DNA from: a virus
IMG/VR virus record: IMGVR_UViG_3300032236_000718
Location: 1 to 64,000 of that record
DNA length: 64,000 nucleotides
Direction: 5' to 3' (one strand)
In this document: positions 56,707 to 60,669 of the stretch, piece after piece
How positions within the stretch are numbered: the first letter of the stretch is position 1
Layout of the letters: every line of letters begins with the position of its first letter
The notes under the pieces: model-generated
The model's input: only the letters and a program-made list of their open reading frames with translations
Database searches by the model: none
Told to the model about the DNA's origin: nothing
Position numbers and translations under genes: made by a program

Positions 56707-57813
56707 ATGGTCAGAGGCGTAAATCTAAAGGGTAAGCCCAAGCAGAAGGTAGCTCGTAAGACAAAGTCCGAGCAGTACCTCGTTAACTTCAAGTATCTAG
56801 GCGACGAGCCAGACTCCAACTTCAAGACAGTGTCCGATCAGATCCGTGCCTTTAACTGGTACAACGCCATGTGTGAGATGGATGAGGCACGCGCGTATCT
56901 TAACGACTACCTGACAATCACGAACCGTACAGACCTATCCAAGAAACTGGATAAGGTCCCAGACTCGTTCTTCCCTACCACAGCCGCGTGGATGGCACGT
57001 ATCGCGCAGCGCAAGAAGTCCTCCATCGAGCCGCACGAGTATGACAAGTTCATGGGCCTAATCGAGACCTCTATCTCTCACGTCAAGGAAGAGAAGGCAG
57101 AGACTAAGAAGGTCGACAAGCCAAACATTCAGGATCGTATTCGCGAGCGTGGTTACGACATCATCGGCGACATCGAGGAGATGATTGATAAGGGAGAGGC
57201 ATTCTCGCTATATGAGTGGCTCAAGAAAAATGAGATCCCTGCTATGTACGCTACAAAGATTGGCGACTACTATGGCGCTGTCTGGAAAGAGATCGTCGAT
57301 GCCCAGTCAGGAACTATCGACGGCTACGAGAAGTGGACAAAGGCTCAGCTCAAGGCACGAGTAGCTTTCTACCTACAACTCATCGACGACGCTGAGCGAT
57401 ATGGCGACAACACTAAGAAGACACGAGCACCTCGTAAGAAGAAAGCTCCGACTACAGAGAAGCTGCTCAAGAACTTCAAATATCAGAAAGAGAGCAATGA
57501 GCATAAGCTTACATCTATTAATCCGGAGTCTATCATTGGTGCAAAGACTCTTTGGACTTTTAATACGAGGTATAGCACTCTTAGTGTTTATAATGCTATG
57601 GGTCCCAGTGGTCTCAGTGTTCGCGGCACTACCCTTACTAATTTTGATGAGTCAAGTTCTAAGGCTATTCAAATAGGTCGTAAGACACAAGAGCGCATCG
57701 AGACTGTACTGAAAGGTGGCAAGATCGTAGTCAAGCGTCTCATTGAGGAGATGAAGAATGACGTTAATGGTCGCATCAATGAGAATACTATTCTATTAAA
57801 GGTGATCAAATGA
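56707..57813 (+). CDS. Conserved T4-like phage protein
   Basis: 368 residues, Lys-rich. The C-terminal L-W-T-F-N-T-R-Y...L-S-V-R-G-T-T-L and K-x-R-K-T-Q-E-R-I motifs match a large uncharacterised family in T4-like marine phages. Codons shift to A/T-ending at about 57480-57680. Overlaps the next gene. Function unknown. Confidence 0.75.
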   Translation: MVRGVNLKGKPKQKVARKTKSEQYLVNFKYLGDEPDSNFKTVSDQIRAFNWYNAMCEMDEARAYLNDYLTITNRTDLSKKLDKVPDSFFPTTAAWMARIAQRKKSSIEPHEYDKFMGLIETSISHVKEEKAETKKVDKPNIQDRIRERGYDIIGDIEEMIDKGEAFSLYEWLKKNEIPAMYATKIGDYYGAVWKEIVDAQSGTIDGYEKWTKAQLKARVAFYLQLIDDAERYGDNTKKTRAPRKKKAPTTEKLLKNFKYQKESNEHKLTSINPESIIGAKTLWTFNTRYSTLSVYNAMGPSGLSVRGTTLTNFDESSSKAIQIGRKTQERIETVLKGGKIVVKRLIEEMKNDVNGRINENTILLKVIK

Positions 57814-58244
57814 AGATACTAAATGAGTGTAGCTTTATCAAGCCAGAGAACATCGCTAAGATTGAGGAGCAATATAAGGCTACGTACGTGTTCGAGACGT
57901 GCCTGCGTGCACGTGAGGGCGGGTGGGCAAACTTCCCTGCAGCGGTCTTCTATCAAGAAGAGATTTATCCTGGTGGTTCGAACTACTTTGCCCTGTATTA
58001 CGACATGGATGGTAAACTATACATCACTGACGCCGGTCCCTCTATCATCGATGAGGAGTTTACAGGCCTAGAGGCTGAGGGCGAGGTAGTATACTCTCGC
58101 TATAGACACGACTATCGTGCAGGAAAGAATGGAGCATATGTAGACGGTGGACGAGATTATTTTAAGTATGGGGGCGATTCTTTTGATGATTACAATATTG
58201 TCAAGTTTAAAGTGGTAGACGATCACCTTGAAATTGTAAAATAA
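57810..58244 (+). CDS. Hypothetical protein, 144 aa
   Basis: Aromatic, beta-rich protein (N-Y-F-A-L-Y-Y-D...L-Y-I-T-D-A). ATGA overlap with the previous gene. No recognised family. Confidence 0.6.
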   Translation: MKILNECSFIKPENIAKIEEQYKATYVFETCLRAREGGWANFPAAVFYQEEIYPGGSNYFALYYDMDGKLYITDAGPSIIDEEFTGLEAEGEVVYSRYRHDYRAGKNGAYVDGGRDYFKYGGDSFDDYNIVKFKVVDDHLEIVK

Positions 58245-58247
58245 GTG

Positions 58248-58276
58248 TGTACAAAATATCACACTGTGTGTTATAA
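58248..58276 (+). promoter_or_regulatory. Sigma70-like promoter TGTACA-N17-TTATAA before tmRNA
   Basis: Canonical -35; the -10 (TTATAA or TATAAA) overlaps a late TATAAATA box at 58272. Confidence 0.6.
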
Positions 58277-58279
58277 ATA
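58272..58279 (+). promoter_or_regulatory. T4-type late promoter box TATAAATA before tmRNA
   Basis: A perfect octamer; predicted transcription start near 58285 coincides with the expected 5' end of the acceptor RNA. Confidence 0.55.
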
Positions 58280-58284
58280 ATATA

Positions 58285-58600
58285 TGCTGTTGTTGATGAC
58301 GAAAGCAGAATAGACATACTGGACGCGGGGGCGGTACCCGCCCGGTCCACCATGGATACACAAACACCCTGCGAGATTGTTGCTTTAGGGTAGGGTGACA
58401 AGAAATAGAACAGCAACTAATACTTGTTTTATTTGTGTATCTTTGATGGGCCGGAAATTAGGATCGACAGGTGTGTTAAAAGCGGACCGAGACAGAAGCA
58501 TAAATAAGTTATCTGCAAACGATAATTCACCTATTGAAATGCGCCTAGCGGCATAATTTCTTGGGTTGGCAACTTACCTCGAAACAGAAAAGTTGCACTT
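58285..58600 (+). ncRNA. ssrA: tmRNA, circularly permuted two-piece
   Basis: The acceptor RNA (to 58352) ends in acceptor strand CCGGTCC, A73 and CCA. The coding RNA starts at 58448 with GGGCCGG, which pairs with it and includes G3-U70, the Ala identity pair. AGGATCGACAGG follows as in alphaproteobacterial tmRNA; GTGTGTT pairs with GACATAC (helix P2). The resume codon is GCA at 58515 and the tag reads A-N-D-N-S-P-I-E-M-R-L-A-A-stop (to 58556). A GCAACTT/AAGTTGC stem closes the 3' end (58569-58596). The T-loop is aberrant (GGCGGTA). tmRNA rescues stalled ribosomes with SmpB, presumably from the host. Confidence 0.93.
58355..58441 (+). other. Intervening segment of the permuted tmRNA
   Basis: The segment between the two tmRNA halves is closed by a perfect 10-bp helix, GATACACAAA (58355-58364) with TTTGTGTATC (58432-58441). 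It would hold the precursor together for processing; the middle should be removed. Confidence 0.75.
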
Positions 58601-58629
58601 CACACAAACAACAAACACAGGAGACTACA

Positions 58630-58845
58630 ATGACAAAAACACCTTTTGAGATTCGTTTTGATCTTCTCAACTATGCGATGAGCCAGCTAACTGGCGAGTA
58701 TTATGCAGCCTTGGAGCGCATACGAGAGTCAACACAAGAAAATTCACCAGCTCGAAACGATGCGGTAAATCAATTAAAATATCCTACTAAGAGTGACATC
58801 ATCCTTTTAGCAGAGGATTTAAAAGCCTTCATTGACAAAAAGTAA
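58630..58845 (+). CDS. Hypothetical protein, 71 aa
   Basis: Helical small protein (I-R-F-D-L-L-N-Y-A-M). GGAGACTACA lies before the ATG, as in the array genes. Adjacent to the tmRNA and one base before tRNA-Arg. Function unknown. Confidence 0.6.
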   Translation: MTKTPFEIRFDLLNYAMSQLTGEYYAALERIRESTQENSPARNDAVNQLKYPTKSDIILLAEDLKAFIDKK

Positions 58846-58846
58846 T

Positions 58847-58923
58847 GGTCTCATAGCTCAGCTGTATAGAGCAGCCGCCTTCTAAGCGGCAGGTCGTTGG
58901 TTAGAGTCCAACTGAGATCACCA
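58847..58923 (+). tRNA. tRNA-Arg (TCT)
   Basis: Acceptor GGTCTCA/TGAGATC, anticodon stem GCCGC/GCGGC with loop CTTCTAA, T-arm GTTGG-TTAGAGT-CCAAC, A73 and CCA. Reads AGA, a frequent codon in the phage genes here. Confidence 0.92.
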
Positions 58924-58939
58924 ATGTGGAGTTCTGGGT

Positions 58940-59110
58940 ATGAATGACTTGAGTAACTACTCCGTCGATGTCTTAAAGAAGACATGCTTTCAAGATGAGT
59001 TGTCAAGCTTAAGAGTTAAGTACCCAGAACCCGATAATTTAACACGCATCATTATGGATTACCTTGATCAGCGCATCAAGGAGATCGACAAAAAATATAA
59101 GATAAAGTGA
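58940..59110 (+). CDS. Hypothetical protein, 56 aa
   Basis: A small, charged helical frame starting 16 bases after tRNA-Arg, with GGAG at 58928. Its stop lies just before the carbamoyltransferase ribosome site. No recognised motif. Confidence 0.55.
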   Translation: MNDLSNYSVDVLKKTCFQDELSSLRVKYPEPDNLTRIIMDYLDQRIKEIDKKYKIK

Positions 59111-59121
59111 AAGGATACCTT

Positions 59122-60669
59122 ATGAAGTTCTTGAGCATTCGCGATGGACATGACTGCAATATCTCCTACTCTGATGGCAAGACCGTAAGGTACATCAAGT
59201 TCGAGCGCAACTATCAGAAGAAGCACTACAACTGGGGCCACGAGGAAGGCGACCAGATGGAGTTCTTACTTAAAGAAGCTCAGCGTATCTGGGGTATCGA
59301 CTTCCGCGATCTCAACGGCATCGCTCTAGTAAACGACAACGCTCATCATAAGCTCGATCGCGACATCGCTCTCAATGAGATGTATTACGTTATCGACAAA
59401 GAGAAGAACCCATTCTGGGCACAGTTCAACTGTCAAGTCTTTAAGATCGATCACCACTACGCACACATGATGAGTTGCTGGCCACTTGTAAATGTACAAG
59501 ACGTGCGCACTCACTTTGTCGTCGACGGTCTAGGTGACCATGCTCGTAACACCGCAGTGTTCCAAGATAACGATCTTGTCGACTTCATCGATCGCTCTCA
59601 GAACCTTGGCATCTCTGTCATTCTCGAGCACATCGGTCAAAACTATGGCATGAAGGGAATGGTTCTCGACATCTCTGGTAAGGTTATGGCTCTCAAGTCG
59701 TATCATCAGGTTCCGGACCAATTAGCATTCGACGCTATGAACCTTGCTAAGTATCTTGGCCTTCGTAACCTCAACCACTTCATTGAGATCTCTAAGCAGC
59801 TTCAAGGATATATTGATCCACTACCGAGCGAGCAACAGCAGCTAGTCAACCTAGCTTATCTCTTGCACGTGTTTGGTGAGGAGAAGATGCCACAGTACTT
59901 CCGTCAGTTCGCTAAGCGCGATGAGGTCATTACGTATTCTGGTGGCACTGCACAGAACACTGTCATCAACACAAAGATCAAGGAAGCTTTCCCTAACTCT
60001 CATATTCCTCCTCACTGCTACGATGGTGGTCTGTCGCTTGGCGGTGTTGAGTTCCTTCGCCAACTATTTCAACAGGATCTATTTGATAACTCTAACTTCC
60101 CTTACTGGCAGTCAGATGAGGCTCCTGCCTCTACTCCATCTGCTGCTACTATCGATAAAACTGCTGAGCTTCTAGCTCAGGGTAAGATCGTTGGTTGGTA
60201 TCAGGGCAATGGTGAGATTGGCCCTCGCGCACTCGGTAATCGCTCGATCTTGATGGATCCATCTATTAAGGATGGTAAAGACATCATCAATACAAAAGTA
60301 AAGAAGCGTGAACCATATCGACCTTTCGGAGCATCTGTTCTCGCGAAATATGCTGGACAACACTTCGATGTCGACTATGAGTCTCCCTACATGCTCCACG
60401 TAGTCAATTGCCTCACCGATGACTTCCCTTCAATTCAACATGTTGACAAGACCTGCCGTATCCAGACAGTCAATGAGGATTCACAGTACTCTGTCTATCA
60501 TTCCATCATCGATAAGTTCCGCGAGAAGACTGGCATTCCTATGCTACTCAATACGAGCTTGAACGTTGATGGTAAGCCTATTGCTGGCTACATGGAAGAT
60601 GCTAAGACCTTGTTTAATGACTCTGACCTAGATGCAGTAGTCATTGGTGACGATATTATGGTTAAATAA
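59122..60669 (+). CDS. Carbamoyltransferase (NodU/CmcH/TobZ family)
   Basis: 515 residues. The N-terminal Kae1-like domain has D-H-H-Y-A-H-M-M (metal His) and V-D-G-L-G-D-H. The C-terminal domain has G-E-I-G-P-R-A-L-G-N-R-S-I-L-M-D-P and P-Y-R-P-F-G. The family carbamoylates sugars or antibiotics from carbamoyl phosphate via carbamoyl-AMP. AAAGGA seven bases upstream supports 59122. In rhizobia NodU modifies Nod factors; here a phage, virion or LPS sugar is the likelier target. Confidence 0.92.
   Translation: MKFLSIRDGHDCNISYSDGKTVRYIKFERNYQKKHYNWGHEEGDQMEFLLKEAQRIWGIDFRDLNGIALVNDNAHHKLDRDIALNEMYYVIDKEKNPFWAQFNCQVFKIDHHYAHMMSCWPLVNVQDVRTHFVVDGLGDHARNTAVFQDNDLVDFIDRSQNLGISVILEHIGQNYGMKGMVLDISGKVMALKSYHQVPDQLAFDAMNLAKYLGLRNLNHFIEISKQLQGYIDPLPSEQQQLVNLAYLLHVFGEEKMPQYFRQFAKRDEVITYSGGTAQNTVINTKIKEAFPNSHIPPHCYDGGLSLGGVEFLRQLFQQDLFDNSNFPYWQSDEAPASTPSAATIDKTAELLAQGKIVGWYQGNGEIGPRALGNRSILMDPSIKDGKDIINTKVKKREPYRPFGASVLAKYAGQHFDVDYESPYMLHVVNCLTDDFPSIQHVDKTCRIQTVNEDSQYSVYHSIIDKFREKTGIPMLLNTSLNVDGKPIAGYMEDAKTLFNDSDLDAVVIGDDIMVK

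Follow-up and report, generated by a model that had tools for sequence, protein, structure and literature searches.

The locus holds a circularly permuted two-piece tmRNA gene of the alphaproteobacterial type, preceded by a T4-type late promoter element (Table 1). The gene order after it is a 71-aa ORF, tRNA-Arg, a carbamoyltransferase gene and gp32. The window, i.e., the whole stretch of 64,000 nucleotides analysed here (positions 1 to 64,000 of IMG/VR record IMGVR_UViG_3300032236_000718), is part of a 164,428-base virus contig that is T4-like; it is classed as linear and may be incomplete. The contig encodes T4-like DNA polymerase, UvsX, gp41, gp32 and ribonucleotide reductase. Because the nearest named DNA polymerases, mostly those of T4-like cyanophages, are about 50% identical, the contig lies outside the named isolates. 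The carbamoyltransferase, encoded at 59107–60669 between tmRNA/tRNA-Arg and gp32, is Nol-like. The 71-aa ORF stands where Melnitz has gp33; its identity as gp33 is unproven, as it has no Pfam or PHROG match and a single weak phage match.

Table 1. Features of the tmRNA locus, in window coordinates.
Feature	Position	Strand	Basis or remark
T4-type late promoter element TATAAATA, exact match	58272-58279	+	also kept in the relatives L002-L005
Circularly permuted two-piece tmRNA gene, alphaproteobacterial type	58285-58600	+	ARAGORN, Rfam
Acceptor piece, about 68 nt: P2 5' strand, T-arm, acceptor 3' half, A73, CCA	58285-58352	+	exact 5' end inferred
GGAC and T-arm GCGGG-GGCGGTA-CCCGC, T-loop as in the alphaproteobacterial model	58321-58341	+	Rfam alignment
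3' acceptor strand CCGGTCC (58342-58348), A73 (58349), encoded CCA (58350-58352)	58342-58352	+	sequence pairing
Intervening spacer, 95 nt, presumed removed	58353-58447	+	sequence reading, fold
5' acceptor strand GGGCCGG, carries G3 of G3-U70	58448-58454	+	sequence pairing
mRNA-like piece, about 150 nt: acceptor strand, P2 3' strand, tag frame, 3' region	58448-58600	+	ARAGORN, Rfam; 3' end inferred
Tag reading frame ANDNSPIEMRLAA, then stop	58515-58556	+	ARAGORN; identical in L002-L005
71-aa ORF downstream of the tmRNA, kept in related phages	58630-58845		no family match

ARAGORN calls a permuted tmRNA at 58259–58647, and two Rfam covariance models match above their gathering cut-offs: alpha_tmRNA (RF01849) with 88.4 bits (E 1.3e-22; cut-off 50) and tmRNA_permuted (RF04321) with 75.1 bits (E 1.4e-12; cut-off 47). 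These matches bear out the original prediction, which had proposed a phage-encoded permuted two-piece tmRNA of this type and had named the covariance-model search, now run, as a check. At 88 bits, the gene scores well below the bacterial tmRNA loci that were taken, which reach about 143–313 bits. Folded as a single strand, the tmRNA is more stable than its shuffles (z = -3.7). The two acceptor strands pair at 7/7 positions in permuted order and include the alanine identity pair G3-U70, with coordinates and pairing as first given. The P2 helix that joins the two pieces is ACATAC/GTGTGT in the window, in a register that is not exactly certain. The spacer is closed by the stem GATACACAAA / TTTGTGTATC, and the window's own 95-nt spacer contains no substantial ORF. 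The tag frame reads GCA AAC GAT AAT TCA CCT ATT GAA ATG CGC CTA GCG GCA TAA; it opens with the resume codon and closes with a hydrophobic AA-type tail, and the peptide A-N-D-N-S-P-I-E-M-R-L-A-A had been read correctly at the outset.

Four close relatives (L002–L005) have the tmRNA gene in the same slot, with an identical tag, and are nearly identical to the window from the P2 strand to beyond the tag. The spacer that separates CCA from the 5' acceptor strand, by contrast, is hypervariable among close relatives, although its two ends are conserved and form the closing stem. Such variation inside a spacer whose ends stay the same fits a precursor that would be cut into two RNAs. The acceptor stems vary on both sides together, being GGGCCGG/CCGGTCC in the window, GGGGGCG/CGCCTCC in L002, L004 and L005, and GGGCCAG/CTGGTCC in L003. 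Over 58342–58454 the spacer of L004 is almost that of the window, yet the acceptor stems of the two differ by three base pairs, on both sides; gene conversion around a site used by a homing endonuclease in relatives is possibly the origin of this difference.

The pairing is a general property of the phage genes. The acceptor stem is 7/7 paired in 104/104 non-redundant phage tmRNAs, via 14 stem types, and the mean number of acceptor pairs is 7.0, against 5.9 with shuffled partners; positions 1–3 are set by the search patterns, and the free pairing evidence is that of positions 4–7. P2 pairing across the same 104 tmRNAs is 0.67, compared with 0.52 after shuffling (maximum of 1000 shuffles, 0.56). 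That the acceptor stem stays fully paired through 14 sequences indicates an RNA under selection.

Two-piece phage tmRNAs were reported in 2022 with phage Melnitz: public phage genomes contained 53, of which 50 were marine or aquatic (PMC9004378). The window gene belongs to this already described kind. A single T-arm pattern matches at least 120 times in IMG/VR viral contigs, and together these counts overturn the earlier statement that tmRNA is rare in phages, as far as the two-piece form is concerned. The permuted model used here is described in the expanded tmRNA database paper (PMC11915505). Melnitz and the related pelagimyophages share with the present contig the T4-like myophage background and a permuted two-piece tmRNA of alphaproteobacterial kin (PMC9004378). 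For Melnitz, the ssrA gene has been reported to come with an early promoter and a glutamine riboswitch, whereas the window has a late-type element and, among Rfam families searched over 57801–59300 with E up to 1, no glutamine riboswitch of the Melnitz type, nor any riboswitch above Rfam thresholds. With bacterial alpha_tmRNA (RF01849, e.g., Caulobacter), the gene shares the permuted order, the T-arm and T-loop, G3-U70, the encoded CCA, the ANDN start and the LAA-type end; it differs in its lower model score, its phage late-type promoter and its place in a phage-only tree group.

Seven isolated phages have a permuted tmRNA by ARAGORN: Ruegeria phages DSS3P8, V10 and DSS3_MAL1, Phaeobacter phage MD18, Rhodobacter phage RcXuper, Erythrobacter phage vB_EliS-L02 and Mesorhizobium phage Cp1R7A-A1. 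Their tags are of the ANxN or VNDN type and differ from that of the window, e.g., ANENFAPMEMRLAA in RcXuper, and none of the seven is among the closest DNA-polymerase matches of the window contig. The gene is annotated in DSS3_MAL1 only and is unannotated in DSS3P8, vB_RpoS-V10, RcXuper, MD18, vB_EliS-L02 and Cp1R7A-A1 (L130, L331–L335). ARAGORN also misses some genes: several relatives had a tmRNA by Rfam scan, and absence from the ARAGORN calls does not equal loss.

In a FastTree tree of tmRNAs from phages (111) and bacteria (103), built on a short alignment and with a base composition that is not the same in the two sets, the host/phage label switches 4 times, against 72 in shuffles. The window's gene falls in a cluster of 105 sequences, all from phages; supports inside the group are 0.75–0.98, and its outermost node has none. 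The tree hints at, without proving, a long-standing phage tmRNA lineage, apart from the sampled alphaproteobacterial ones. As for the host, the tmRNA type suggests one that is probably alphaproteobacterial. It is known from Melnitz, a Methylophilales phage, that an alphaproteobacterial-type tmRNA can be carried by a phage whose host belongs to another class (PMC9004378). Assigning the host from similar DNA or from the polymerase was given up, as the nearest polymerases are so distant and mostly from cyanophages.

When would the gene be expressed? An exact TATAAATA lies 30–55 nt upstream of the T-arm in 78 of 123 non-redundant viral permuted tmRNAs and in 0 of 111 bacterial ones; the viral counts are drawn from related sequences and do not represent independent events. 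In the window the distance is 49 nt, and transcription is expected to start near 58285. The window has 11 TATAAATA sites, against about 3.3 expected, several of them directly upstream of a start codon. A gp55-like late sigma factor is encoded at 141679–142098 of the contig (49% identity to gp55); that is, both the TATAAATA element and the gp55-type sigma of a T4-type late unit are present. Among the isolates, TATAAATA was not seen upstream in DSS3P8, V10 and RcXuper, the three with enough flank.

The upstream element might instead be a mere sigma-70 -10 box; the tmRNA would then be expressed early, which is what has been proposed for Melnitz. TTGACA, with at most 1 mismatch, precedes TATAAATA in 57 of the 78 viral genes, at a spacing of 17 nt in 56, the arrangement of a sigma-70 promoter. 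The same hexamer is rare before the other TATAAATA sites of these loci (4/136), and the -35 box of the window and of the relatives closest to it has decayed to TGTACA, 18 nt away, while all 8 TATAAATA bases are kept. Moreover, a scan for consensus sigma-70 promoters finds none at the position of the tmRNA gene, and the contig encodes the gp55-like sigma. A purely early gene is thus considered unlikely here. In most of the TATAAATA-bearing phages we read the arrangement as a putative composite early/late (sigma-70/T4-late) promoter. In the window, the weak -35 box and intact TATAAATA favour late expression; with the -35 box so weak, it is TATAAATA that would carry the late timing.

In a number of relatives the spacer contains genes. 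A gene for a 77–78-aa hydrophobic, membrane-like protein, with a Shine-Dalgarno-like sequence, is found in L461–L489 (e.g., L462:1983–2246), L222, L275, L277 and L321. By a strict test, the gene is nested after CCA and before the 5' acceptor strand at 26 of the 34 loci concerned, the other 8 being unplaced. Summed over pairs, its codon differences number 1244 synonymous and 1248 non-synonymous, and such near equality indicates purifying selection on the gene. In L487–L489 the spacer is longer, and the 77–78-aa gene is preceded by additional coding-like sequence. A second gene, at L144:1210–1653 inside a 514-nt tmRNA spacer and also in L160, L161, L251 and L495–L497, encodes a 148-aa HNH homing-endonuclease-like protein (Pfam HNH, E 2.6e-5; PHROG homing endonuclease, E 7e-15). 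Three contigs from the wider group to which the window belongs have the 514-nt spacer with the HNH gene, in a tmRNA gene with the tag ANDNSLLEMRLAA and an acceptor stem of the window's GGGCCGG type.

A broader proposal is that phages of alphaproteobacteria have a long-established tmRNA lineage of their own, with a composite promoter active throughout infection and a spacer that serves as a slot for nested genes (for the membrane protein or the homing endonuclease), the mRNA of which would be cut from the precursor. The window's gene would then be a member with an empty spacer and, of the promoter, mainly the late element. We offer this proposal tentatively, at somewhat less than even odds. No description of the composite promoter or of spacer-nested genes was found in the open-access literature text, and what the nested genes suggest for the relatives is a spacer use for which no description was seen there.

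The tag bears on what the phage might gain. Its design, with the host architecture ANDN...LAA, appears from the sequence to be that of a normal ClpXP-type tag. In a comparison in which hosts and phages are unmatched and a few host genomes were picked via the tag pattern, ALAA is the commonest tag end in host and phage samples alike, RLAA ends make up 14 of 115 alphaproteobacterial host tags and 18 of 109 phage-contig tags, AVAA ends are found in 21/115 hosts and 1/109 phages, and two tags are exactly common to both samples. The idea of a phage-specific RLAA tag was dropped, given the similar rates. A scan for ANDNxxxxMRLAA, a pattern that omits AGR arginine codons and the TGA stop, finds 15 places in 84,980 species genomes and at least 119 in viral contigs, the latter not dereplicated. 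The species-genome places that were read are ANDNVGMEMRLAA (Methylobacterium group), ANDNFAPEMRLAA and ANDNFAEDMRLAA; the exact tag ANDNSPIEMRLAA is absent from all 15. Unusual tags without the LAA end, e.g., AKKAHNDNINYSAMKIAA and AKTASNDNVPYSAMKVAA, occupy the same slot in L132, L141, L146, L149, L155, L158, L159 and L166.

Could the phage be reprogramming the tag, i.e., replacing that of the host so that tagged products escape proteolysis or meet a changed one, or so that host proteins are degraded for amino-acid recycling? Amino-acid recycling via host-protein degradation has been suggested for the Melnitz tmRNA (PMC9004378). The absence of ANDNSPIEMRLAA from the species-genome places, the abundance of its pattern in viral contigs, the near absence from phages of the AVAA end common in hosts, and the quite different tags of relatives in the same slot, such as AKKAHNDNINYSAMKIAA in L132, speak for reprogramming. 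Against it, ANDN...LAA, which the tag retains, is the architecture most often seen in hosts; RLAA ends are about as frequent in hosts as in phages, the two samples have exact tags in common, and the phage-rich counts come from contigs that are not dereplicated and samples that are unmatched. Reprogramming is therefore held to be doubtful, and the original suggestion that the host tag is replaced to give a different protease fate is unsupported. Much the least probable alternative is that of a captured host ssrA fragment or functionless remnant: host ssrA is a known integration site, with fragments in prophages (PMC9004378), but the gene is complete, its stem changes are compensatory over 104 phage copies, its promoter element is conserved (78/123 viral genes), the mRNA-like domain is near-identical in relatives despite the diverged spacer, and in the tree the phage copies stand separate from the host ones instead of falling next to individual hosts.

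The preferred reading is that of a functional alphaproteobacterial-type permuted tmRNA of a T4-like phage, which would rescue ribosomes with host partners late in infection; we put its probability at roughly 80%. The proposed course is as follows. With the gp55-type sigma of the phage bound to it, host RNA polymerase would transcribe the precursor late. Host tRNA-processing enzymes would then release an acceptor piece of about 68 nt with its end at CCA 58352, and an mRNA-like piece of about 150 nt that begins at 58448; the acceptor stem and P2 would bring the two together again. The two-piece tmRNA would be charged by host AlaRS via G3-U70, and host SmpB and EF-Tu would bring it to stalled ribosomes, where AANDNSPIEMRLAA would be added to the stalled protein. 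The tagged protein would be degraded by host ClpXP-type proteases. Neither SmpB nor SspB was found in the contig, possibly incomplete as it is, so these partners would be the host's. The original proposal that the phage supplies its own ribosome rescue is thus plausible for the RNA, with host SmpB being needed. The benefit to the phage would lie in keeping ribosomes free during virion protein synthesis.

The seven isolated phages with permuted tmRNA genes have cultivable hosts, and the conserved late or composite promoter makes the need for, and the timing of, phage trans-translation directly testable. Ribosome rescue would be no rare host scrap but something that many aquatic phages bring with them, with its own promoter signal and its own tag.
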